A DNA stretch of 64,000 bases from positions 1-64,000 of the forward strand of contig NZ_WJWY01000010.1 in the NCBI RefSeq assembly GCF_010367435.1. Direction: 5' to 3'. Source of the DNA: Fusobacterium sp. IOR10. GTDB taxonomy: Bacteria > Fusobacteriota > Fusobacteriia > Fusobacteriales > Fusobacteriaceae. The translations under genes and the position numbers were made by a program. This document shows, in pieces, positions 4,523 to 59,272 of this stretch. How positions within the stretch are numbered: the stretch's first letter is position 1; each line of letters starts with the position of its first letter. The notes under the pieces are model-generated. The model made no database searches, was not told the origin of the DNA, and saw only the letters and a list, made by a program, of their open reading frames with translations.

Positions 4523-5920
4523 TTAACTTAATTTCTTTACCATATCTCTTACAGATAAAATTCCCATTACTGCTGCTATATTAAGTCCACTTCCATACCC
4601 TGACCCATCCCCTGCAGCATATAGTCCTTTTATATTTGTCATCATATTTTCATCTAAAGTCATTCTAGTACTTCTAAACTTTATTTCTGGAAAATATAAC
4701 AATAAATCTGAAGAAGCAAAACCTGGTGTTATTTTATCGTGAGCTTCAATAAATTCCATTACATTATCTAATATCCTTTTAGGACAAGCTAGAGAAATAT
4801 CCCCAGCAACATAATCTGTAGTTGTTGGAACAATATTAAGCCTTTCTAATTTTTCATCTGTTGAACGTCTTCCTTCTTTTAAATCTCCATAAGATTGAAG
4901 TAATAATTTTCCTCCTGTGAGCATGGAAGACATTTTTGCAATAGCTTCTGCATATTCAAAGGGTTGATCAAATGGTTTTGTAAATGTTTTTGTACAAAGC
5001 AATGCTAAATTTGTATTTTTAGATTTTTTATTTTTATAAGCATGACCATTAGCTAGTACTATACTATCTGAATGTTTTTCTGCTGCTATAAATCCACTTG
5101 GATTACTACAAAAAGTTCTCATTCTATCCCTATATGTTTTTGTATAATAAATCATTTTAGCCTCATAAAAATTTTCATTAATCTCTTTCATTATAATATC
5201 TGGAATTTCAACTCTAACTCCAATATCAATAGCTCCATTAGTGCAGTTTACTCCATATTTATGACTTATTTCCATAACTTTATGAGCTCCACTTCTACCC
5301 ATTGCAAGGAGAACATTATCAGAATAATATTCTTCCATTTTATTTTTATATAAGCATTTTGCTCCTTTTATTTTTCCATCTTCTATTATTAATTCCTCTA
5401 TATCTCTTTCTGTTTTAAATTCAACTCCCTTTTCTAGAAGTTCGTCTATTAACTTTGTATATAATCTTCTTGAACCATCAGTTCCTAAATGCATTGTTGG
5501 AGTACCAACTAATTGAATTCTATTTTCTATACATTTTCTTTTTATTTCTTCCATAGCCGTGTTGTATTTTAACCCTGTAGCTTCTTCCATAAATCCAAAT
5601 TTTTTATAAATATTAACAACATAATTAATTGTATCGTTAACAATGGTTTTACTCACTAATTTATGAACATCTCCACCAACTTTATAATCTAAATTGAACT
5701 TTGAATCTGAAAAAGCCCCTGCACCACTAACACCATAAATTATTGCACAAGTGGGACAATTTACACATTTACCCAATGTTTCTTTGGGGCATACTCTTTC
5801 CTTTAGCATTCTTCCTTTATCTATAACCAATACTTTTAATTTGGGATTTAATTTTACAGCTTCGTAAGCTCCAAAAACTCCTGCTTGTCCTCCACCTAAA
5901 AAAATTATATCATACTTCAT
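4523..5920 (-). CDS. FAD-dependent dehydrogenase (COG2509 type)
   Basis: 465-residue flavoprotein of the uncharacterised COG2509 group. An N-terminal dinucleotide-binding motif (GGGQAGVFGAYE, residues 9-20) is followed by four cysteines (44, 52, 55, 58) that could bind a metal or cluster. The typical VSGAGAFSDSKFN segment comes next, and a C-terminal AAGDGSGYGSGLNIAAVMG closes the FAD site. The reaction is unknown. It is last in a six-gene unit with trmFO, the xerC-like gene, hslV, yqeH and the pseudopilin-like gene, starting 9 bp after its neighbour. Confidence 0.85.
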   Translation of the reverse strand: MKYDIIFLGGGQAGVFGAYEAVKLNPKLKVLVIDKGRMLKERVCPKETLGKCVNCPTCAIIYGVSGAGAFSDSKFNLDYKVGGDVHKLVSKTIVNDTINYVVNIYKKFGFMEEATGLKYNTAMEEIKRKCIENRIQLVGTPTMHLGTDGSRRLYTKLIDELLEKGVEFKTERDIEELIIEDGKIKGAKCLYKNKMEEYYSDNVLLAMGRSGAHKVMEISHKYGVNCTNGAIDIGVRVEIPDIIMKEINENFYEAKMIYYTKTYRDRMRTFCSNPSGFIAAEKHSDSIVLANGHAYKNKKSKNTNLALLCTKTFTKPFDQPFEYAEAIAKMSSMLTGGKLLLQSYGDLKEGRRSTDEKLERLNIVPTTTDYVAGDISLACPKRILDNVMEFIEAHDKITPGFASSDLLLYFPEIKFRSTRMTLDENMMTNIKGLYAAGDGSGYGSGLNIAAVMGILSVRDMVKKLS

Positions 5921-30079: not shown

Positions 30080-31444
30080 TTAATCTTTATTTCTAGTTTT
30101 TTCCAAATGATTTTTATAGGCCTTTGTCTCTGCTACAACTACACCAGACAGACCTATTAAAGCTATTAAGTTAGGAATAGCCATAAGCCCATTCACAATA
30201 TCTGCAAGTGTCCAAATTGCTTCTAACTTTATAAATGCTCCACAAGCAATTAAAACAATGAAAATAACTCTATAAGGTAAAATTCCTCTTACTCCAACTA
30301 AATATACTATACAACGTTCTCCGTAATAATTCCATCCTAGAATAGTAGTAAAAGCAAATAATACAAGACCAATTGTTAGAATATATTTACCAATAACTGG
30401 ATATCCTGTTGAAAAAGCAGCTTGTGTAAGCGCTGCTCCATTTAAATCTCCAGTCCACAATCCACTAATTATAAGTGTTAAACCAGTTAAAGTACATATA
30501 ATTATTGTATCAATAAATGTACCTGTCATTGAAATAAGACCTTGTTGTGCTGGCCACTTAACTTTTGCTGCTGCTGCTACAATAGGAGCACTTCCTAATC
30601 CAGATTCATTTGAAAAAACTCCACGAGCAACACCACTACGCATTGCAAGCATAACAGTTGAACCTAAAAATCCACCCTTTGCTGCTGTTGGACTAAAAGC
30701 ACTTGTAATAATTTGTTCAATTGCCCCTGGAACCTTATCTGCAAAAATAATTAAAAATCCTATCACTGCAATGAAATAAATTAATGCCATAGTTGGAACC
30801 ACTTTACTTGCAACTTTTGAAATAGATTTTAATCCACCAATTGTTACTGCAGTTACTAAAATTGTTAAAACAGCTGCAACTACTTTTATAGGGATCCCAA
30901 ATGATAAATTAGTTATTTCTGTAATTGCATTAACTTGAGCAAATGTACCTATTCCAAAATAAGCAACTAATACTCCAAATACTGCAAACATTACTGCTAG
31001 AGGTTTGTATTTTTTACCTAAACCATTTTCTATATAATGCATCGGTCCACCTACAACATCTCCATTTGCATCAATACCACGGAACTTAACAGCAAGTAAA
31101 CATTCTGAATATTTACTTGCCATACCAAAAAATGCTGCAATCCACATCCAGAACAATGCTCCTGGTCCACCTACTTTAATAGCAGTTGCAACACCAACTA
31201 TGTTTCCTGTACCAATAGTTGCTGCTAATGCTGTACAAAGAGCACGAAAACTATTAATATCTCCATGTTCATCTCCTTCATCTTTCATACTAGTGAAAAT
31301 TAATTTTAATGCTTTTGGTAAACTGAAAACTTGTAAAAATTTCAATCTCAATGTTAACATAATACCTGTTCCAACAAGTAAAATTAAAAGTGGTGGTCCC
31401 CAAACAAAACTGTCAATACTATTTAATAACTTTAAATAATCCAT
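30080..31444 (-). CDS. Alanine/glycine:cation symporter (AGCS/AlsT family)
   Basis: 454-residue transporter with about eleven membrane helices that moves alanine or glycine with sodium. Family signatures ALAATIGTGNIVGVATAI (about 68) and VVGGPMHYIENGLGKKYK (about 130), plus SNESGLGSAPIVAAAA (about 277), are intact. The tandem glycine riboswitch upstream argues that glycine is a main substrate. Single-gene transcript with GGAGGG before the ATG. Confidence 0.95.
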   Translation of the reverse strand: MDYLKLLNSIDSFVWGPPLLILLVGTGIMLTLRLKFLQVFSLPKALKLIFTSMKDEGDEHGDINSFRALCTALAATIGTGNIVGVATAIKVGGPGALFWMWIAAFFGMASKYSECLLAVKFRGIDANGDVVGGPMHYIENGLGKKYKPLAVMFAVFGVLVAYFGIGTFAQVNAITEITNLSFGIPIKVVAAVLTILVTAVTIGGLKSISKVASKVVPTMALIYFIAVIGFLIIFADKVPGAIEQIITSAFSPTAAKGGFLGSTVMLAMRSGVARGVFSNESGLGSAPIVAAAAKVKWPAQQGLISMTGTFIDTIIICTLTGLTLIISGLWTGDLNGAALTQAAFSTGYPVIGKYILTIGLVLFAFTTILGWNYYGERCIVYLVGVRGILPYRVIFIVLIACGAFIKLEAIWTLADIVNGLMAIPNLIALIGLSGVVVAETKAYKNHLEKTRNKD

Positions 31445-31506: not shown

Positions 31507-31650
31507 AGATTTTTGGAAATTTACAAATTCTTATATAAGTACAACTAAATAAAGTAGTAATTTATTTAAAAATTACTAAATTTAATTAGTTGTTCATATA
31601 ATTGAATTTATAAAGTTATTAATAGTATAAAGTATTAATAATCTATATTT

Positions 31651-31820
31651 CCTCTGTCCTTTTGCCTGAGAGATAAAGATTAAAATAAAAATTAAAATCT
31701 GTGCACCTTCGGCGCCCGTTTAAGGGACTCTCCAGAGTTGTGTCCTTGTACGGTCCTCACTTAATTAAAAGCACCTGAGAGTTTAACTCCTTCGGTATGT
31801 ATTTCTACATTCTCCCATAC
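31651..31820 (-). ncRNA. Tandem glycine riboswitch (two aptamers)
   Basis: On the minus strand two copies of the glycine aptamer follow each other. Aptamer 1 (about 31820-31748) has GGGAGAAT, ACCGAAGGAG, CTCTCAGGT and GAGGACCG. Aptamer 2 (about 31745-31651) has CTGGAGAG, GCCGAAGGTGC, TCTCTCAGGC and AAAAGGACAGAGG. Both core motifs and the short linker are intact. Binding of glycine should change formation of the hairpin at 31469-31506 and so control the symporter. Confidence 0.95.
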
Positions 31821-36362: not shown

Positions 36363-36941
36363 CTAATCTTTTATTTTTTTACTTAGTTCATTTAATATAG
36401 CTGGATAAATTCTATGCTCTATTTTATGAATCTCTTCTTCTAACTTTTCTATATTCCATCCATCTTTTATTTTTAATTTTTCTTGGTAAATAATTTCACC
36501 AGAATCTACCCCTTCGTCAACATAATGAATAGTTACCCCTGTTTCTTTAGCTCCTGCTTTAAAAGCATCTCCTATTCCATCTTTTCCAGGATAATTAGGC
36601 AAGTAAGCTGGATGAATATTTACAATTTTATTTTCATAGGCCTTTAACAAAGTAGATGATATGATTCTCATGTAACCTGCTAAGGCAATTAATCTTATCT
36701 CATTTTCATTTAAAATTTCTATTATTTTTTTTTCATAATTTTCTTTAGTTGAAAATTCTTTAGGAATAACTATATAGCATGGTATCCCTAAATTCTTAGC
36801 TCTTTTTTCAGCATAGGAATTTTTTTTATCAACTATTAAAAGCTCCACTGAGTAATTTATATACTTATCTTCCTTGCTCTTTTCAACTATACTTTGAAAA
36901 TTTCCACCATTTCCAGAAGCAAAGACTGCGATTTTTACCAT
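36363..36941 (-). CDS. purN: Phosphoribosylglycinamide formyltransferase
   Basis: 192 residues. It formylates GAR using formyl-tetrahydrofolate. The N-terminal ASGNGGNFQSI binds the phosphate; catalytic Asn and His are in KIVNIHPAYLPNYPG (about 105) and the Asp in HYVDEGVDSGEII (about 139). It overlaps the end of purM by 7 bp, indicating translational coupling. Confidence 0.96.
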   Translation of the reverse strand: MVKIAVFASGNGGNFQSIVEKSKEDKYINYSVELLIVDKKNSYAEKRAKNLGIPCYIVIPKEFSTKENYEKKIIEILNENEIRLIALAGYMRIISSTLLKAYENKIVNIHPAYLPNYPGKDGIGDAFKAGAKETGVTIHYVDEGVDSGEIIYQEKLKIKDGWNIEKLEEEIHKIEHRIYPAILNELSKKIKD

Positions 36942-37999
36942 TCTAACTCTACTCCTTTTTCTCCTTCTATAATATCCCCAAGAACTACAGGTTTTTCACC
37001 TAATTTTTCTAGTTCCAAAACAATTTCTTCACTTTTGTTTTCTTCAACTATCAAAATAAATCCAATTCCCATATTAAATACATTGTATAATTCTTCCTTT
37101 TCTAGTTCACCTTTTTCTTCTAAAAATTTAAATATTTTAGGTGTATCAATAACTTTAGTATCAATTTTAGCTCTTAGTCCTTCAGGAAGTACTCTAGGTA
37201 TATTTTCATAAAATCCACCACCTGTAACATGACACATTCCGTTTATTTCAAATTTAGAAAGTAAAGCTTTTATTGTTTTAACATATATTCTTGTTGGTGT
37301 AAGAAGAGCTTCTCCCAATGATTTTCCATCAAATAAATCTCTGTATCCATTTAAATCAAATTGATTATCTTTCATAATTATTTTTCTTACAAGGGAAAAT
37401 CCATTTGAATGAACACCTGATGAAGGAATTCCAATTATTTTATTTCCACTTTTAACTTTTTTCCCTGTTATTAGTTTTGATTTTTCAACTACTCCAACAC
37501 AAAATCCTGCAAGATCATAGTCACCTATTTTATACATATCTGGCATTTCTGCAGTTTCTCCACCAATAAGTCCACATTCTGATAGAACACATCCATCTGA
37601 AACACCCTTTACTATTTGTTCTATTTGTTCAGGAAAATTCTTTCCAACTGCTACATAGTCAAGAAAAAATATTGGCATAGCCCCTTGAACTAAAACATCA
37701 TTTACACACATTGCCACAACATCTTGCCCTATAGTATCGTGTTTTTCCATTTGGAAAGCTAACATTAATTTTGTTCCCACTCCATCTGTTCCACTTATTA
37801 AAACAGGTTCTTTGTATCCTAAAGCAGAAAGATCAAACATTCCACCAAAGGCTCCTATACTGTCCATAACTCCCTTTACTCTTGTTCTTTCAACATGGGA
37901 TTTAATTCTTCTTACAGATTCATAACCAGCTTCTAAATTAACACCAGATTCAGCATATTTTTTACTACTTTTTACATCTTCCATATAATTCTCCACCAT
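36935..37999 (-). CDS. purM: Phosphoribosylformylglycinamidine cyclo-ligase (AIR synthetase)
   Basis: About 354 residues. It closes the imidazole ring to give AIR. Signatures include GGMFDLSALGYKEPVLISGTDGVGTKL (starting about 53), MCVNDVLVQGAMPIFFLDY and HVTGGGFYENIPR. The frame can be opened at a TTG at 38014, but that triplet is part of the ribosome site TTGGAGG; the ATG at 37999 is the real start. First gene of purMNHD, whose leader carries a purine riboswitch, a 66-codon ORF and two terminators. Confidence 0.96.
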   Translation of the reverse strand: MVENYMEDVKSSKKYAESGVNLEAGYESVRRIKSHVERTRVKGVMDSIGAFGGMFDLSALGYKEPVLISGTDGVGTKLMLAFQMEKHDTIGQDVVAMCVNDVLVQGAMPIFFLDYVAVGKNFPEQIEQIVKGVSDGCVLSECGLIGGETAEMPDMYKIGDYDLAGFCVGVVEKSKLITGKKVKSGNKIIGIPSSGVHSNGFSLVRKIIMKDNQFDLNGYRDLFDGKSLGEALLTPTRIYVKTIKALLSKFEINGMCHVTGGGFYENIPRVLPEGLRAKIDTKVIDTPKIFKFLEEKGELEKEELYNVFNMGIGFILIVEENKSEEIVLELEKLGEKPVVLGDIIEGEKGVELEW

Positions 38000-38019: not shown

Positions 38020-38220
38020 TTAATAAAAAAATACGCTACAAAACATTGCCTCACAGCATAATGATTTTGTAGCGTTACTTGTTAAAATATTTATGTTTTT
38101 TTTATATTTTTCAATGCACATAAAAACAATTCCAAACTTTACAAGTTTGAATTTTATGGAAAAACTATTTGTTATACTTTTAACCATTCTTTTTATTTTT
38201 ACACCAAAAATAAAAAACAT
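38020..38220 (-). CDS. 66-residue leader ORF ahead of purM (starts MFFI)
   Basis: ATG at 38220 has AAGGAG about 10 bases upstream. The frame ends 20 bp before the purM ATG. The product is basic and hydrophobic at the start (MFFIFGVKIKRMVKSI) and ends with a Cys/Phe-rich stretch. The last 18 codons run through the terminator hairpin 38033-38075, and the stop lies in its T-run. Thus a translating ribosome would melt that terminator. The first 14 bases around the start (CAATGTTTTTTATT) match the leader ORF ahead of purE. Probably a regulatory ORF rather than a functional protein. Confidence 0.5.
   Translation of the reverse strand: MFFIFGVKIKRMVKSITNSFSIKFKLVKFGIVFMCIEKYKKNINILTSNATKSLCCEAMFCSVFFY
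38023..38075 (-). terminator. Second leader terminator ahead of purM
   Basis: Perfect 11-bp stem ACGCTACAAAA/TTTTGTAGCGT with inner CATT-GC/GCAATG pairing, then ATTTTTTTATT on the minus strand. It is 24 bp upstream of the purM ribosome site and overlaps the end of the leader ORF. Confidence 0.85.
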
Positions 38221-38306: not shown

Positions 38307-38322
38307 AATATTGTATTCTTTT

Positions 38323-38390
38323 GCTTATAGTCTGCCAATTTAAGGTTGCAGGTAGAAACTCGTCGTCCATATCACGACTATTATATAAGC
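38323..38390 (-). ncRNA. Purine riboswitch, guanine/hypoxanthine class (purM leader)
   Basis: On the minus strand: P1 GCTTATA/TATAAGC, P2 TCGT/ACGA with loop GATATGG, junction GTTTCTACC, P3 loop CCTTAAA, then GACTATA. The C in GACTAT at the specificity position indicates guanine or hypoxanthine rather than adenine. It controls purM-purN-purH-purD through the terminator at 38290-38306. Confidence 0.95.
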
Positions 38391-38420
38391 GTAAACTTTT
38401 ATTCATCTATTTACTTCCTA

Positions 38421-44305: not shown

Positions 44306-44790
44306 TATAAGTCTACCTCACTTGTTTCTAATACTTTATTTTTTTGATCTTCTCTAAATTTCAATACTTTATCTGCAACTTCTTCATCCATTAACCCTAT
44401 TATCTCAGCTGCTAGAATTCCTGCGTTTTTAGCACCTGCATCTCCTATGGCCAATGTCCCAACAGGAATCCCCCCTGGCATTTGAACTATTGATAGCAAA
44501 GAATCTTTTCCACTTAATGCTCTTGATTTTATTGGAACACCTAAAACTGGAACTGTAGTTAAAGCTGCCACCATTCCAGGAAGATGAGCTGCTCCCCCTG
44601 CTCCTGCTATTATAACTTTCACTCCTCTACCCCTTGCTTTTTTTGCATAGTCATACATTAAATCTGGTGTTCTATGAGCTGATACTATTTTCACTTCATA
44701 ATCAATTCCAAACAATTTTAACATTTCAACAGCTTTTTCCATTGTTGGAAGGTCTGATCTGCTCCCCATAATTACACTAACCATTGACAT
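44305..44790 (-). CDS. purE: N5-carboxyaminoimidazole ribonucleotide mutase
   Basis: About 161 residues. It converts N5-CAIR to [34 protein letters not shown] and [14 protein letters not shown] are the class I PurE signatures. The frame opens at a TTG (44802) that belongs to the TTGGAGG ribosome site. ATG 44790 is 5-6 bases after it and is preferred; ATG 44784 is also possible. First gene of purE-purK-purL, behind the second riboswitch leader. purF, purC and purB are not in the window. Confidence 0.96.
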
Positions 44791-44837
44791 AATTACCTCC
44801 AAAAAATTTATTTAAATATTTTTAGCTTACTTTAATC

Positions 44838-44885
44838 AAAAAAAACGCCATAAATCAAGGGCGAACTATCCCTGAAATTATGACG
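44838..44885 (-). terminator. Second leader terminator ahead of purE
   Basis: CGTCATAA/TTATGGCG outer stem and TCAGGG/CCCT-GA inner stem, then eight T on the minus strand. The leader ORF stop codon (44857-44855) lies inside its 3' arm. Confidence 0.8.
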
Positions 44886-44941
44886 TCTAATAATTTATAA
44901 TTTATCTTTTTAAAAACTTGTTTTGTTTTAATAAAAAACAT
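44855..44941 (-). CDS. 28-residue leader ORF ahead of purE (starts MFFI)
   Basis: ATG at 44941 is preceded by AAAAGGGG about 9 bases upstream. The product begins MFFIKTKQVFKKINYK and ends SGIVRP. Its last third overlaps the second terminator, and the stop codon sits in the hairpin's 3' arm, so a ribosome ending there would block the terminator. The start context CAATGTTTTTTATT is identical to that of the purM leader ORF. Likely regulatory; the signal sensed is unknown. Confidence 0.5.
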   Translation of the reverse strand: MFFIKTKQVFKKINYKLLDVIISGIVRP

Positions 44942-44967
44942 TGCTTAGTCCCCTTTTTTTAATCTAT

Positions 44968-44997
44968 AAAAAAACAAATGATTACACCAACCATTTG
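44968..44997 (-). terminator. Riboswitch terminator ahead of purE
   Basis: CAAATGGTT/AATCATTTG stem with a 5-base loop and a run of seven T on the minus strand, 44 bp after the purine aptamer. Confidence 0.85.
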
Positions 44998-45040
44998 AAA
45001 AAGCAACTTAAGTTATAACGAGTTTTCATTATATCTTTGT

Positions 45041-45108
45041 GCCTATAGTCTACTAATTTAAGGTCAGTAGGTAGAAACTTGTCATCCGTATTATGACGTT
45101 TATATAAG
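45041..45108 (-). ncRNA. Purine riboswitch, guanine/hypoxanthine class (purE leader)
   Basis: On the minus strand: P1 GCTTATA/TATAGGC, P2 GTCAT/ATGAC with loop AATACGG, junction GTTTCTACC, P3 TACTGA/TTAGTA with loop CCTTAAA, then GACTATA. The specificity base is C, so guanine or hypoxanthine. It controls purE-purK-purL through the terminator at 44975-44997. A TTGAAA...GATACT promoter-like pair with a short spacer lies upstream near 45135-45160. Confidence 0.95.
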
Positions 45109-45341
45109 CTATTATTCAATTAATTAACCCTAGAGTATCACACTTCTTAGATTTTTTCAACTGGGAATAATAAAAAAATAAAATTTTTTTCATCCTAAAG
45201 AATGAAAAAATCTTGACTAAAATTTTACAAAAAAATTTTTTTTATTTTTTTAAAACAAAACCTTTCTTTTCTCAGTCATAGTAAAGTAATTAGGGTGAGT
45301 TTTATATTTCTTATTTATTCATTTTTTAAAAAGGAGATTTT

Positions 45342-45623
45342 ATGAAAAAGAAAGAGTTTGCAGAATTATTTATGGTTAAAGCTGAATTGAAAAGTAAGGA
45401 AGAAGCAAAAAGACAAGTTGAACTATTTATTGAAACTATGAAAGATGCTTTAGAAAGCGACGAAGTTCTAATTTTTAGAGGATTAGGTACTTTTGAAAGA
45501 AGAATTACTAAAAGAAAAGAAGGAAGAAATCCAAGAACTGGTGAATCTATCAAGATTACTCCTAAAAAATATATTAAATTTAGAGTGGGTAAAGATTTAG
45601 AAGATAGATTAAATAATAAATAA
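45342..45623 (+). CDS. hup: HU-family DNA-binding protein
   Basis: 93-residue histone-like protein that bends and compacts DNA as a dimer. The helical body is followed by GLGTFERRITKRKEGRNPRTGESI, the beta-arm with the conserved RNPRTGE near residue 66. AAGGAG 7 bases upstream fixes the ATG. It is a monocistronic unit ended by a strong terminator; the AT-rich stretch 45130-45341 upstream must hold its promoter, but no clear pair was found. Confidence 0.95.
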   Translation: MKKKEFAELFMVKAELKSKEEAKRQVELFIETMKDALESDEVLIFRGLGTFERRITKRKEGRNPRTGESIKITPKKYIKFRVGKDLEDRLNNK

Positions 45624-45640
45624 CATTATGCAATACAAGG

Positions 45641-45670
45641 AAAGAGCAATTAATATTAATTGCTCTTTTT
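45641..45670 (+). terminator. Terminator of the HU gene
   Basis: Perfect 28-bp palindrome AAAGAGCAATTAAT/ATTAATTGCTCTTT with a T-run. Confidence 0.9.
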
Positions 45671-45742
45671 ATTTTGAGAATTTTATTTAAATATATGTTA
45701 TAATTATCAATATAAATATTTTTATTTAGGAGGTTGTTACCC

Positions 45743-46303
45743 TTGGGAAAAGTTATTTATGTTAGTGGAGGAGCTCGAAGTGGAAAAAGTTCTTTTTCTG
45801 AAAAATATATAGAAAAAAGATACTCTAAAAAAATTTATTTAGCCACTGGAATTCCTTTTGATGAAGAAATGAAGGACAGAATAGAGAAGCACAAAAAGCA
45901 AAGAGGTAAAAATTGGAAAACAATTGAAAATTATAAAAATCTTGCAAATATTTTAAGGGATCATATTCAAGGATATGATATTATTTTACTAGATTGTTTA
46001 ACAAATTTAATTACAAACTATATGATTGGAAACAAGGATATAATTTGGGAGAAAGCAATTCCTAAAGAAGTTGACAATATGAAGGAAACAATACTTAAAG
46101 AAATTTCTTCTCTTATTGACTTTACAAAAGAAAATAACATTGATATCCTAATAGTTTCAAATGAAGTTGGAATGGGAAGTATTCCTGATTATCCACTTGG
46201 AAGATTTTTTAGAGATATAAATGGAAAACTTAATCAATTTGTAGCTACAGAATCTGATGAAGCATACTTCATAGTTTCTGGTTTACCTATAAAGTTGAAA
46301 TAA
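45743..46303 (+). CDS. cobU: Adenosylcobinamide kinase/guanylyltransferase
   Basis: About 186 residues. It phosphorylates adenosylcobinamide and adds GMP during late cobalamin assembly. P-loop GGARSGKSSFSEKY near the N-terminus, then VSNEVGMGSIPDYPLGRFFRD. The frame opens at a TTG directly abutting AGGAGG (45728-45733), too close to use; the TTG at 45743, nine bases away, is preferred. It heads the cobU-cobS-cobC-cobT run. A TATAAT at 45699-45704 is a probable -10 box. No cobalamin riboswitch precedes it. Confidence 0.94.
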   Translation: MGKVIYVSGGARSGKSSFSEKYIEKRYSKKIYLATGIPFDEEMKDRIEKHKKQRGKNWKTIENYKNLANILRDHIQGYDIILLDCLTNLITNYMIGNKDIIWEKAIPKEVDNMKETILKEISSLIDFTKENNIDILIVSNEVGMGSIPDYPLGRFFRDINGKLNQFVATESDEAYFIVSGLPIKLK

Positions 46304-46318
46304 TACTTAGGAGGATTT

Positions 46319-47098
46319 ATGAAAGGATTCATTTTACTATTAAAATTTATGACTAGATTTCCTGTTCCCATAGAGCCTGAATATGACTCTAAAAAGCTAG
46401 GGAATAGTATGAAATTCTTTCCATTTGTTGGAATTATAATTGGAGTTTTACTCTATGTTATATATTATTACGGAAGAATAATTATACCATCACCTTATAT
46501 TCTTGCTACTATTTTAGTTTTATCTGAGATAGTTATGACTGGAGGACTACATCTTGATGGCTTAGCTGATACCTTTGATGGAATTTTTAGTTATCGTAGC
46601 AAACAAAAAATGTTAGAAATAATGAAGGATTCTAGAGTGGGAACTAATGGAGCACTTGCTCTAATTATATATTTCTTTTTAAAGGTACTTTTACTTGCTG
46701 GACTTAAAACTAGCTTCCCTTTTCACGGAATGGGTATTGCTGTTCTTATGACTCCAGTAATAGCAAGGGCAAATAGTGTCCTTAACTGCTCTGTTGGGAA
46801 ATATGCTAAATCTGTTGGTATGGCCAAGGATTTTGTTAAAGAAACAACTAGACAAGGGGCTACTTTTGCAATACTTTCTTCAACAATATTTTTATTTTTA
46901 GTTCAAGGAATTTTATTTCCTAAACTAAATCCTATTCATTTAGTTAATATTGTATTTGTTATCCACGTTTTAGGAATTTACTTTGCTAAACTTATGGATA
47001 GAAAAATAGGTGGTATTACAGGGGATACTTTAGGAGCTATTTTAGAACTATCTGAAATATTATTTCTTTTAGGATTATACATATCTTTCAGTTTCTAA
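46319..47098 (+). CDS. cobS: Adenosylcobinamide-GDP ribazoletransferase
   Basis: 259-residue integral membrane enzyme that joins adenosylcobinamide-GDP to alpha-ribazole to give cobalamin. FMTRFPVP near the N-terminus, GGLHLDGLADTFDGIFSYRSKQKML (about 80-104) with the Asp-rich metal site, and GGITGDTLGA near the C-terminus are the family marks. It starts 15 bp after cobU. Confidence 0.95.
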   Translation: MKGFILLLKFMTRFPVPIEPEYDSKKLGNSMKFFPFVGIIIGVLLYVIYYYGRIIIPSPYILATILVLSEIVMTGGLHLDGLADTFDGIFSYRSKQKMLEIMKDSRVGTNGALALIIYFFLKVLLLAGLKTSFPFHGMGIAVLMTPVIARANSVLNCSVGKYAKSVGMAKDFVKETTRQGATFAILSSTIFLFLVQGILFPKLNPIHLVNIVFVIHVLGIYFAKLMDRKIGGITGDTLGAILELSEILFLLGLYISFSF

Positions 47099-47108
47099 AG
47101 GAGACTTT

Positions 47109-47702
47109 ATGGGAAAAATTATTTTAGTTAGACATGGGGAAACTAACATGAATAGAGATAATCTTTATCATGGAATTCTTGACCCCACATTAAATGAAAC
47201 TGGTATAAAACAAGCTGAAAAAGCTTATAATATAATTAAAAATATTTCTTATGATAAAATTTTTTCAAGCCCTTTAAAGAGAGCCTATGAAACAGCAACA
47301 ATTTTAAATTATAAGAAGCTGGATATTGAATTTTCTGATAAAATCAAGGAACTTAATTTTGGAATTTTTGAAGGATTATCCTATGAAGAAATTTCACATA
47401 AATATCTCTATGAACTTAAAGAAGCTACTAAAAATTGGAAAAATTATAACTTTAAAACAGGAGAAAGTCCTTGTGAATTACAAAAAAGGTCTGTCCAGTT
47501 TATAAACTCTTTAGATAAAGATTTAAATTATTTAATAGTTACTCACTGGGGTGTAATATGTACAATTTTAAGCTATTATTTTTCCTACAATTTAAATGCT
47601 TATTGGAAATTTAAAATTGATAACTGCGGTATTGTAATTATTGAATTTACCAAGGATAATTTCCCGATTTTAGCAGGATTTAATATTGGAGGATGGAATT
47701 AA
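47109..47702 (+). CDS. cobC: Histidine phosphatase family protein, probable alpha-ribazole phosphatase
   Basis: 197 residues. The phosphoglycerate-mutase fold has LVRHGETNMNRDNLYHG (5-21) with the catalytic His in RHG, SSPLKRAYETA near 55 and the second His in VTHWGVI near 145. Its place between cobS and cobT indicates removal of phosphate from alpha-ribazole-5'-phosphate (or adenosylcobalamin phosphate). It starts 10 bp after cobS. Confidence 0.88.
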   Translation: MGKIILVRHGETNMNRDNLYHGILDPTLNETGIKQAEKAYNIIKNISYDKIFSSPLKRAYETATILNYKKLDIEFSDKIKELNFGIFEGLSYEEISHKYLYELKEATKNWKNYNFKTGESPCELQKRSVQFINSLDKDLNYLIVTHWGVICTILSYYFSYNLNAYWKFKIDNCGIVIIEFTKDNFPILAGFNIGGWN

Positions 47703-47705
47703 TTT

Positions 47706-48764
47706 ATGAAAAGATTTGAAGAAAGTTTAAAGGAAATAACTCCTTTAAATAAAAATTCTATAGACTTATGCGAAAAAGTACTAAATTCGAAAATGAAACC
47801 TATTGGAAGTTTAGGGAAATTAGAAGATATTTTAAAACAACTTGCTGGGATTTTTGAAAATAGATTTGATAAAATTCATTTAACACCTTGTCATATTGTA
47901 GCTGCTGCAGATAATGGAGTTGTAGAGGAAGGGATTTCCTCTTGTCCTAAAGAATATACTTCTTTAGTTTCAAAATCAATGCTAAATGATTGTGCTGCTA
48001 TAAGTATCATGTGTAATAATTTAAATGTTGATTTTAAACTAGCAGATGTTGGTATCTGTGAAAATTTAGATATCTACTCTAGAAATTTCTATGATTTTAA
48101 AAATTTAAAGGGTACTAACAACTTTCATAAAAAAGAAGCTATGACAAAAGAACAAGTAATTGAAACTATTGAAAATGGTATAATTATGATGGAAGGTCTT
48201 GAAAATAAATATGATATATTTTCAAATGGAGAAATGGGTATTGGAAACACCACTACTTCTTCAGCTATTCTTTATTCTCTTACTAAATGTAGTATTGAAA
48301 GTGCTGTGGGAAAAGGTGGAGGACTTTCAGATGAAAAACTTTGTATAAAAAAGAAAATTATTTTTGAAAGTTGTATAAAATATAATACATTTCAATTGGA
48401 TCCTTTGGAAATAATGGCTTGTGTAGGGGGATTGGATATTGCTTTTTTAGTTGGACTATATATTGGAGCAGCTAAATGCAAAAAAATAATGCTTGTTGAT
48501 GGATTTATATCTGGAATTGCTGCACTTGTAGCCTGTAGATTAAACCCTTTAATTAAAAATTATATTCTTATAACTCATTTAAGTGAAGAACCTGGAATGA
48601 AATTAATAATAGAAGAATTAAATCTTAAACCTTTTTTATTTATGAATATGAGATTAGGAGAAGGAACTGGAGCAGTTTTAGCACATCCAATGATGAAATG
48701 TGCTTTAGACATTTACAAAACAATGAAGACCCCTGATGAAATATATAAACTTTTTAAAAAATAG
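47706..48764 (+). CDS. cobT: Nicotinate-nucleotide:dimethylbenzimidazole phosphoribosyltransferase
   Basis: 352 residues. It makes alpha-ribazole phosphate, the lower ligand of cobalamin. KPIGSLGKLEDI (about 32), AAADNGVVEEGIS, GEMGIGNTTTSSAIL (about 178) and the catalytic Glu in RLGEGTGA (about 317) are all present. It starts 3 bp after cobC. Only the nucleotide-loop assembly genes are here; corrin ring genes are absent from the window. Confidence 0.96.
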   Translation: MKRFEESLKEITPLNKNSIDLCEKVLNSKMKPIGSLGKLEDILKQLAGIFENRFDKIHLTPCHIVAAADNGVVEEGISSCPKEYTSLVSKSMLNDCAAISIMCNNLNVDFKLADVGICENLDIYSRNFYDFKNLKGTNNFHKKEAMTKEQVIETIENGIIMMEGLENKYDIFSNGEMGIGNTTTSSAILYSLTKCSIESAVGKGGGLSDEKLCIKKKIIFESCIKYNTFQLDPLEIMACVGGLDIAFLVGLYIGAAKCKKIMLVDGFISGIAALVACRLNPLIKNYILITHLSEEPGMKLIIEELNLKPFLFMNMRLGEGTGAVLAHPMMKCALDIYKTMKTPDEIYKLFKK

Positions 48765-56923: not shown

Positions 56924-59272
56924 ATGGCGAGAAAAAAAGCACCAAAAAAAAATTTAGTTATTGTGGAATCCCCCGCTAAAGCTAAAACAATAGAAAAAAT
57001 ATTAGGAGATAAATTTTTAGTTACCGCCTCTTTTGGACATATTAGAGATTTACCTAAAAGTAAATTGGGGGTTGATATTGAAAATGGATTTATTCCTAAA
57101 TATTCAACAATTCGTGGAAAGGGAGACGTTACACGTACTTTAAAAGACCTTGCTAAGAAATCTGAAAAAGTTTATCTTGCTTCTGACCCAGATAGAGAAG
57201 GGGAGGCAATTGCTTGGCATATTGCACAAACTTTAAAATTAGATGCTAATGATAACAATAGAATTGAATTTAATGAGATTACAGCATCTGCAATTACAGA
57301 TGCTATTAACAACCCAAAAAAAATTGATATTAATAAAGTTAATGCCCAACAGGCTAGAAGAATTCTTGATAGACTTGTTGGATACGGAATTAGTCCTTTA
57401 CTTTGGAAAACTATTTCCTCTAACACAAGTGCAGGAAGAGTTCAGTCAGTTGCTCTTAAATTAATTTGTGAGCTTGAAAATTCAATACAAGCATTTGTTC
57501 CTGAAAAATACTGGGATGTTAATGGTGAATTTGAAAACAATATAAAATTAAATTTATACAAAGTTGATGATAAAAAAATTGATAAACTTAAAGACGAATC
57601 AGTTGTTAAAAAGATTAAATCTTTTAACAAAAGTACATTTAATGTGGAGAAAGCTAAAATTAATAAAAAAGTTAAAAATCCACCTTTACCATTAAAGACA
57701 AGTACTTTGCAACAGTTATCCTCTTCTTATTTAGGTTTTGGAGCCTCTAGAACTATGAAACTAGCTCAAAATTTATATGAGGGTATTAATATTAATGGTA
57801 ATCATAAAGGTCTTATTACTTATATGAGAACTGATTCCACTAGAATATCTCAAGAAGCTCGTGATATGGCTAAGGATTTTATCATAAAAAATTATGGTAA
57901 GGAATACTTGGGAGTTGAAAAGAAAAAAGCCACAAAAAAAGATAAAAATATTCAAGATGCTCATGAGGGTATTAGACCTTCAAATATTGAGTACACACCT
58001 GAATTTTTATCTAAATATTTAGATAAAAATCAATTGAAACTTTATACTCTTATTTGGGAAAGATTTATAATCTCCCAATTAGCTCCTATGAAATATGATC
58101 AGTTTGAAATTATCTGTTCTAAAGAAAATATTAAATTTAGAGGAGTTACTAGTAAAATAACCTTTGATGGTTATTATAAAATTTTTAAAGATGAAGATTC
58201 TCTTCCTATTGGAGATTTTCCTAATATTGAAGAAAATGATAACTTAAAATTGAATAAATTAAATATAAAAGAAGATTATACTAAACCACCTACAAGACTC
58301 ACTGAATCTTCTCTTATTAAAAAATTAGAAGCTGATGGAATAGGAAGACCTTCCACATATGCTACTATTATTGACACTTTAAAGAAAAGAGAATATGTTT
58401 CTTTAAGTGGAAAAAGTTTTATTCCAACAGAACTTGGATATGAAGTAGAAACTACATTAAACAATAATTTCAAGCAAATTATGAATGTTAAATTTACTGC
58501 TGAAATGGAAAATAATCTTGATAAAGTTGCTGAAGGAAATGAAAATTGGCAAGAAATATTAAAAAATTTCTATGAGGAACTTTCTAAAAATATTGATAAG
58601 TATAAGCTTATTGTTGAAGAAGAAGAAAATAGAATTGTAACTTCAGATGTACAATGCCCTAATAATCATGGGACTATGCTTATGAAAAACGGTAGATTTG
58701 GTAGATATTTAGCTTGTGAAAATGAAGAATGTACTGAAAAATTCTCTTTAAAAGGTATTGATTTACCAAGAGAAGATATACAAAATGGAAAAATTATTGT
58801 AAATGAAATAATAAAGAAAAGAATTGCTGATAAAAAAGGAAAATTAACTGATGTTTTATCTGAAACTGGTTCTAAAATGGTATTGAAATTAGGTAGATTT
58901 GGTAGTTATTTGGAAAGTGAAAATTATTCTGAAGACAATATTAGAACTCCTCTTCCTTCTCAAATAAGGAAAGCTTTAGCCAATGAAGAGGTTCCAGTTG
59001 AAAATGGAGTGGTTAAATTAAATTCCATGCTGAAGGCTATTAAAGATGAAGAAGATGCAATTTTATCAAAAGTTGGAGTTTGTGAAAAATGTGGAAAACC
59101 ATTTAGAATTGGTAGAAGTAGATGGGGAAAATATTTAGCTTGTACTGGTTATCCTGAATGTAAAAACATTAAAAATCTAGATAAAGATGGAAATATTGTT
59201 GAAGCTAAGGAAAAAACCACTAAAAAGAAAGCCACTAAGAAAAAAACTACTAAGAAGAAAGTTAAAAAGTAA
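56924..59272 (+). CDS. topA: DNA topoisomerase I
   Basis: 782 residues. Type IA enzyme that relaxes negative supercoils. The TOPRIM domain has LVIVESPAKAKTIEKILG near the start and SDPDREGEAIAWH (about 88). The active-site Tyr is in GLITYMRTDSTRIS (about 300). Two C-terminal Cys-rich zinc ribbons follow (near 577-604 and 718-744), then a Lys-rich tail (KKATKKKTTKKKVKK). It follows dprA, the common dprA-topA order, but has its own promoter. Confidence 0.97.
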   Translation: MARKKAPKKNLVIVESPAKAKTIEKILGDKFLVTASFGHIRDLPKSKLGVDIENGFIPKYSTIRGKGDVTRTLKDLAKKSEKVYLASDPDREGEAIAWHIAQTLKLDANDNNRIEFNEITASAITDAINNPKKIDINKVNAQQARRILDRLVGYGISPLLWKTISSNTSAGRVQSVALKLICELENSIQAFVPEKYWDVNGEFENNIKLNLYKVDDKKIDKLKDESVVKKIKSFNKSTFNVEKAKINKKVKNPPLPLKTSTLQQLSSSYLGFGASRTMKLAQNLYEGININGNHKGLITYMRTDSTRISQEARDMAKDFIIKNYGKEYLGVEKKKATKKDKNIQDAHEGIRPSNIEYTPEFLSKYLDKNQLKLYTLIWERFIISQLAPMKYDQFEIICSKENIKFRGVTSKITFDGYYKIFKDEDSLPIGDFPNIEENDNLKLNKLNIKEDYTKPPTRLTESSLIKKLEADGIGRPSTYATIIDTLKKREYVSLSGKSFIPTELGYEVETTLNNNFKQIMNVKFTAEMENNLDKVAEGNENWQEILKNFYEELSKNIDKYKLIVEEEENRIVTSDVQCPNNHGTMLMKNGRFGRYLACENEECTEKFSLKGIDLPREDIQNGKIIVNEIIKKRIADKKGKLTDVLSETGSKMVLKLGRFGSYLESENYSEDNIRTPLPSQIRKALANEEVPVENGVVKLNSMLKAIKDEEDAILSKVGVCEKCGKPFRIGRSRWGKYLACTGYPECKNIKNLDKDGNIVEAKEKTTKKKATKKKTTKKKVKK

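Follow-up and report, generated by a model that had tools for sequence, protein, structure and literature searches.

A leader ORF that runs into a terminator behind a guanine-type riboswitch suggests pyrBI-type attenuation of purE in Fusobacteriota

Introduction

Nucleotide-sensing attenuation in which transcription is coupled to translation is textbook knowledge for the E. coli pyrimidine operon. The PRPP-guanine tandem riboswitches place two purine-related sensors one after the other ahead of purine genes. In E. coli pyrBI the terminator is located inside the leader ORF (PMC4824070), and termination in pyrL is inhibited by the advancing ribosome (PMC5021804). A close ribosome represses a terminator when the stop codon is near, termination depends on the distance from stop to hairpin, and in the leaders of amino-acid operons more than 20 nt separate the stop from the terminator downstream (PMC4824070). 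An ATP-responsive leader ORF, the A-rich mgtM, is also known (PMC3641672). For control of purine genes a 2026 review, in the passages retrieved by keyword, names PurR and riboswitches, and the main text of a survey of motifs in 50 genomes, Leptotrichia motifs among them, contains neither purE nor purL. In the literature that our searches could reach (supplements, subscription papers and preprints lay outside it) we found no leader-ORF attenuator of purine biosynthesis.

Here we analyse the leader of purE in a 64,000-nucleotide stretch of DNA from Fusobacterium sp. IOR10, called the window below, together with the corresponding leaders of its relatives. The purE leader is probably a coupled transcription-translation attenuator of the pyrBI type with ATP-sensitive pausing, in series with a guanine riboswitch. 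In its mode of action it would match pyrBI attenuation, and the mgtM ORF, which responds to ATP, is a further parallel; a purine-directed version is not described in the literature searched. If correct, this would be a purine counterpart of pyrimidine-operon attenuation, kept across a large part of a deep phylum.

Results

Layout of the purE leader

An earlier note on this DNA had placed a 28-codon ORF at 44941-44855 of the minus strand with its TGA (44857-44855) in the 3' arm of a terminator, and its coordinates and geometry proved correct. The range it covered missed a guanine-type riboswitch at 45127-45026 and a weak hairpin at 44997-44975. In full, the purE leader reads as follows.

45026-45127, minus strand: purine riboswitch aptamer, putative guanine type (Rfam RF00167, 76 bits versus a gathering score of 37)
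44968-44997, minus strand: first terminator-like element, weak (hairpin 44997-44975, CAAATGGTTGGTGTAATCATTTG plus TTTTTTT, -6.0 kcal/mol), presumed to be the riboswitch expression platform
44950-44956, minus strand: Shine-Dalgarno (SD)-like AAAGGGG of the leader ORF (sequence and SD scoring)
44855-44941, minus strand: leader ORF with ATG start, 28 codons, MFFIKTKQVFKKINYKLLDVIISGIVRP and stop; frame kept open in relatives
44888-44932, minus strand: A-rich tract, the 45 nt preceding the hairpin (composition 58% A, 4% G, 4% C), proposed ATP-sensitive pausing region
44836-44887, minus strand: terminator 2, the putative attenuator, hairpin 44887-44844 plus T tract (folding energy and window scan)
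44857-44855, minus strand: stop TGA of the leader ORF, inside the 3' arm of terminator 2
44308-44790, minus strand: purE, ATG at 44790, own SD GGAGG at 44800-44796 (gene names from sequence and operon context)

The C in the GACTA of the aptamer (position 74), which we read from the purE-leader sequence, is taken by us to denote a guanine-type purine aptamer. The hairpin of terminator 2 has a folding energy of -18.6 kcal/mol versus -7.8 +/- 2.4 for shuffled sequences (z -4.6, with 0 of 200 shuffles as good) and is followed on its 3' side by TTTTTTTT. The operon begins with purE and continues with purK and purL. As the purE ATG lies 65 nt beyond the stop of the leader ORF and has its own SD, translational coupling of the ORF to purE is unlikely. 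The region divergent from purE (45342-48764, plus strand) holds a gene for a histone-like DNA-binding protein at 45342-45623 and a cobalamin-synthesis-like cluster (cobU, cobS, phosphatase, cobT).

A second such leader precedes purM

Both strands of the window were scanned blind for terminator-like hairpins having an SD-led ORF that ended inside the hairpin or <=25 nt after it. Such an ORF was found at 3 of the 41 terminator-like sites: the purE leader, the purM leader and a spurious site (57950-58004, plus strand), which was rejected as a leader device as it lies within a 787-codon gene. The only other clear case in the window besides the purE leader is therefore the purM leader at 38220-38020.

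38308-38408, minus strand: second purine riboswitch aptamer, ahead of purM (RF00167, 75.5 bits versus a gathering score of 37)
38020-38220, minus strand: purM leader ORF, 66 codons, beginning MFFIFGVKIKRMV; it crosses its own terminator and stops just 3' of the U-tract
38034-38074, minus strand: terminator hairpin of the purM leader (-19.6 kcal/mol, z -4.5)
36935-37999, minus strand: purM, then purN, purH and purD (names from sequence and context)

The purE and purM leader ORFs both start with MFFI. The window also contains a glycine riboswitch aptamer (31644-31745, minus strand; RF00504, 54.7 bits) ahead of a sodium-alanine/glycine symporter-like ORF at 30080-31444.

Translation into the terminator is conserved in Fusobacteriota

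The genes purE and purL and the riboswitch were looked for in 98 Fusobacteriota genomes and purM within the family, and the leaders were read; the names used for relatives (Leptotrichia-like for g21, Leptotrichiaceae for f4) are those that we infer. Curation gave 43 pur leaders (41 genomes, 13 genera) with an SD-led ORF meeting a terminator before purE, purL or purM, the start codons being picked by SD with some freedom of choice and the false positives being bounded by blind scans at about 1/39 and 0/19. The ORFs end in or beyond the terminator save for one limiting case, leader L175, in which the ORF ends 12 nt before it. The frame of the leader ORF is open as far as the hairpin in 42 of the 43 leaders versus 2 and 1 of 43 for the other two frames. 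Counted by codons, stops between start and hairpin amount to 1 in 1327 in frame versus 158 in 1306 and 165 in 1290 in the shifted frames.

The earlier note held the stop codon in the 3' arm to be the operative feature. In the 43 leaders the stops are spread over the 5' arm or base (14 leaders), the loop (16), the 3' arm (8) and the sequence past the hairpin (5), and lie anywhere between 12 nt upstream and 58 nt downstream of the hairpin base. A 3'-arm stop codon as the key feature was therefore rejected, since the position is labile among relatives. The constant property of these leaders is that translation reaches the hairpin, as it does in E. coli pyrBI. The ribosome-mediated antitermination put forward in the note is thus supported as regards translation into the terminator (frame, SD and overlap are conserved and the geometry is that of E. 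coli pyrL) but not as regards the stop position. Conservation of the open frame, SD and terminator overlap across much of the phylum also favors its prediction that translation of the ORF should block the terminator and turn purE on. The same pipeline recovered E. coli pyrL, with the hairpin at 88-108 of the ORF, the stop +44 nt from the hairpin base and a T/C-rich tract.

In other phyla, the combination of ORF and overlapping terminator occurred at none of 80 purE loci, of which 19 have a terminator-like site. Within Fusobacteriota the device was not found in the pur leaders of genera g5, g7, g8, g9, g13, g14 and g25, and the riboswitch leaders before transporters (L171, L173, L255, L256) gave no convincing ORF-terminator pair, having an ordinary terminator at most. 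In the Leptotrichia-like genomes (g21) the ORF and terminator are present and a purine riboswitch is not, which indicates that the second stage stands alone there.

Leaders of pyrB and the nucleotide preceding the hairpin

The earlier note named no signal. The upstream guanine-type riboswitch and the A-rich tract, which is T-rich in pyrB leaders, point to nucleotide sensing. Upon searching Fusobacteriota for pyrB, a T-rich leader ORF ending in a terminator, laid out as in E. coli pyrBI, was found in most of the Fusobacteriaceae genomes examined. The genome of the window has such a pyrB leader (L253/L257; G000:C36, about 5000-5287), the T-rich ORF of which (MNRYLFEDFKIFFLNFISTFFNYFNIINITKE and stop) ends in the terminator. 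The PyrB protein of this genome has a C-terminal Cys-rich tail resembling the PyrI zinc domain.

If polymerase pauses at the nucleotide of the end product, the tracts of pur leaders are expected to be rich in A and those of pyr leaders rich in T. In the 45 nt before the hairpin, T was richer in the pyr leader in 27 of 27 genome-matched pairs and A was richer in the pur leader in 25 of 27 (Wilcoxon p about 1e-5, the paired genomes being related and not phylogenetically independent). The mean differences over these 27 genomes were 29 points for T and 23 points for A, and by genus the T contrast was seen in 8 of 8. In the genome of the window the purE tract has 58% A and 33% T, and the pyrB tract 29% A and 60% T.

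Against this reading, the contrast resides mostly at amino-acid-changing positions (Lys versus Phe) and fourfold sites show none; among synonymous positions it is seen in Ile codons only (ATA:ATT 58:26 in pur and 32:48 in pyr, p 3e-4). Moreover, the 58% A of the purE tract in the window places it in the top 3-4% of 45-nt stretches in the genes and intergenic DNA of the window, and the A-richness of the leader ORF as a whole is equalled by 4% of genes. Overall A-richness was thus rejected as proof of ATP sensing, being too weak alone for the leader of the window, and the paired pur/pyr test was used instead. The Leptotrichiaceae-type (f4) leaders are not A-rich overall (43%), and the pyrB leaders of g21 are without the device.

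The encoded peptides

The eight leaders of genus g3 that are of equal length had a mean dN of 0.18 and a mean dS of 0.24 (dN/dS about 0.8). Given that the frame is kept while the amino acids are not strongly kept, translation rather than its product seems to matter, and with such weak amino-acid constraint the g3 leaders give no support for a conserved functional peptide. In f4 leaders the codons of a conserved RQxxxLSTL stretch lie in the same place as an RNA hairpin (AGACAA..TTGTCT), after which comes ACTTTGTT. This mid-ORF hairpin with ACTTTGTT is common to the Leptotrichiaceae-type purL leader ORFs L165, L166, L170, L175, L178, L180, L181, L204 and L211 and may be a polymerase pause element.

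Discussion

The sequence comparisons give good support to translation-dependent antitermination at purE, where termination would depend on whether the leader ORF is translated. We propose that transcription attenuation in the purE leader has two stages. The guanine-type riboswitch would be the first stage and the second would be the short leader ORF, which ribosomes would translate close behind RNA polymerase. With an ample supply of purine nucleotides, most likely of ATP, polymerase would pass quickly through the A-rich tract and leave the ribosome behind, terminator 2 would fold and purE would be off. When ATP is scarce, polymerase would be slowed at the A-rich tract, allowing the ribosome to catch up and occupy the 5' arm and loop; terminator 2 would then be unable to fold and purE-purK-purL would be transcribed. 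The signal would thus be ATP shortage, with low purine turning purE on. Footprint sizes suggest that while polymerase is on the U-tract the trailing ribosome would still be short of a stop in the 3' arm and would have to block the hairpin from its 5' arm or loop; action from these positions leaves the stop free to vary. The leader peptide would have little or no sequence-specific role, as it is the act of translation that would count. The purM operon has this device as well, and pyrB in this genome has a pyrimidine (U-rich) version of it.

The purE leader resembles that of E. coli pyrBI (PyrL) in having an SD-led ORF of similar length, a terminator inside the ORF and, ahead of the hairpin, a tract rich in the nucleotide that the pathway makes. 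It differs in that the purE and purM leaders precede purine genes, have an A-rich rather than U-rich tract and an upstream guanine riboswitch, and belong to another phylum; the likeness is one of design and sequence homology is no part of the comparison. The marks of the pyrBI class are distributed as follows. Pur leaders have an SD-led ORF heading a nucleotide-biosynthesis operon and a terminator overlapped by that ORF. The own-nucleotide tract is seen in the 27 pairs, although it is weaker against plain background and does not extend to the f4 leaders overall. Control of an aspartate carbamoyltransferase gene (pyrBI proper) applies to the pyrB leader L253/L257 and not to the purE and purM leaders.

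The B. subtilis guanine riboswitch (RF00167) attenuators share the aptamer class and the position before purine genes, but here a second, translated attenuator follows, and in the Leptotrichia-like relatives that second stage lacks the riboswitch. Unlike the PRPP-guanine tandem arrangement, the putative second sensor of purE is a leader ORF plus terminator rather than an aptamer. Salmonella mgtM (mgtCBR) likewise has an adenine stretch in a short leader ORF, a peptide that is not conserved and polymerase-ribosome coupling (PMC3641672). However, mgtM precedes other genes and uses alternative stem-loops with high ATP giving the on state, whereas the purE leader has one terminator overlapped by the ORF and its logic would be that low ATP turns the genes on. 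The M. tuberculosis B12 riboswitches also combine a riboswitch and a leader ORF in one transcript leader, but these act by SD masking and translation re-initiation with no intrinsic terminator inside the ORF (PMC11260477), unlike the purE leader.

Three other explanations were weighed. The conserved elements might form a relay in which the guanine riboswitch masks the ribosome binding site of the leader ORF and so controls its translation, which in turn sets terminator 2, such that the second stage has no sensor of its own wherever the riboswitch is present. In the purE leader of the window the TTGCTT 3' of the aptamer can pair either with the aptamer 3' strand or with the AAGCAA just before the ORF ATG, a hairpin covers the ORF SD in g1 relatives and in purM leaders, and in leader L169 (G082) the aptamer is immediately followed by the ORF SD, a riboswitch terminator being absent. 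Folding models having the aptamer 3' strand either free or occupied, with a crude energy model, gave lower SD-start accessibility in the aptamer-closed state for L001, L002, L215, L216, L111, L010 and L016-L018, but no difference for L003-L006, L011-L015, L019, L021 and L028. Moreover, upstream of the ORF in g3 leaders stands a stronger riboswitch terminator of the ordinary kind, and g21 keeps the ORF though it has no riboswitch. We regard such a relay as unlikely to be the general explanation of the second stage. The other sensing alternative is that termination is set by stalled ribosomes or slow initiation, reflecting charged tRNA, fMet supply or stress, with no nucleotide-dependent pausing of polymerase. 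Lysine makes up 26% of pur-leader residues versus 10% in control ORFs, and tRNA-fMet has been proposed to play a part at a leader ORF that precedes a one-carbon gene of Streptococcus (PMC11109978). However, sensing of the amino acids that are purine precursors was rejected by composition, since Gly (0.9% versus 7.8%) and Asp (1.6% versus 5.0%) are depleted and Gln is only slightly increased (3.0% versus 1.9%), and the leader peptide is weakly conserved. A trp/his-type attenuator likewise fits poorly, as the pur leaders lack control codons for the amino acids of the pathway and their hairpins overlap the stop or lie <=12 nt from it, unlike the terminators >20 nt past the stop in amino-acid operons (PMC4824070). 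We thus consider amino-acid or general translation sensing quite improbable.

There might also be no regulation at all, with the ORF and terminator overlapping by chance in an AT-rich leader or the terminator being constitutively leaky. For the purE leader of the window (L001) taken alone, an open frame of this length arises in about 12% of shuffles, but the frame is open in nearly all of the leaders across 13 genera, the purE loci of other phyla gave no example and the device is found at pur and pyr leaders only. Chance overlap was rejected on the window scan, the frame conservation and the control with other phyla, and we consider this explanation very improbable.

The two-stage attenuator with ATP-sensitive pausing thus remains our preferred reading of the purE leader. 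More tentatively, and with rather less than even confidence, we suggest that Fusobacteriota use one leader-ORF attenuator design to sense both ATP (A-rich tracts, pur) and UTP (U-rich tracts, pyrB), with the guanine riboswitch in series at pur and in some species gating ORF translation as a riboswitch-ribosome-terminator relay. The A-tract pur and U-tract pyr leaders of one genome would then be a natural matched pair for how a trailing ribosome reads polymerase speed, and a riboswitch and a translated attenuator would be combined in one leader. The arrangement also suggests how Leptotrichia-like species that lack the riboswitch might control purine synthesis.

In reading the leaders we also saw an AGTGTG-like motif that recurs within or close to the terminator hairpins in different genera (e.g., L003, L006, L007, L010-L019 and L195).
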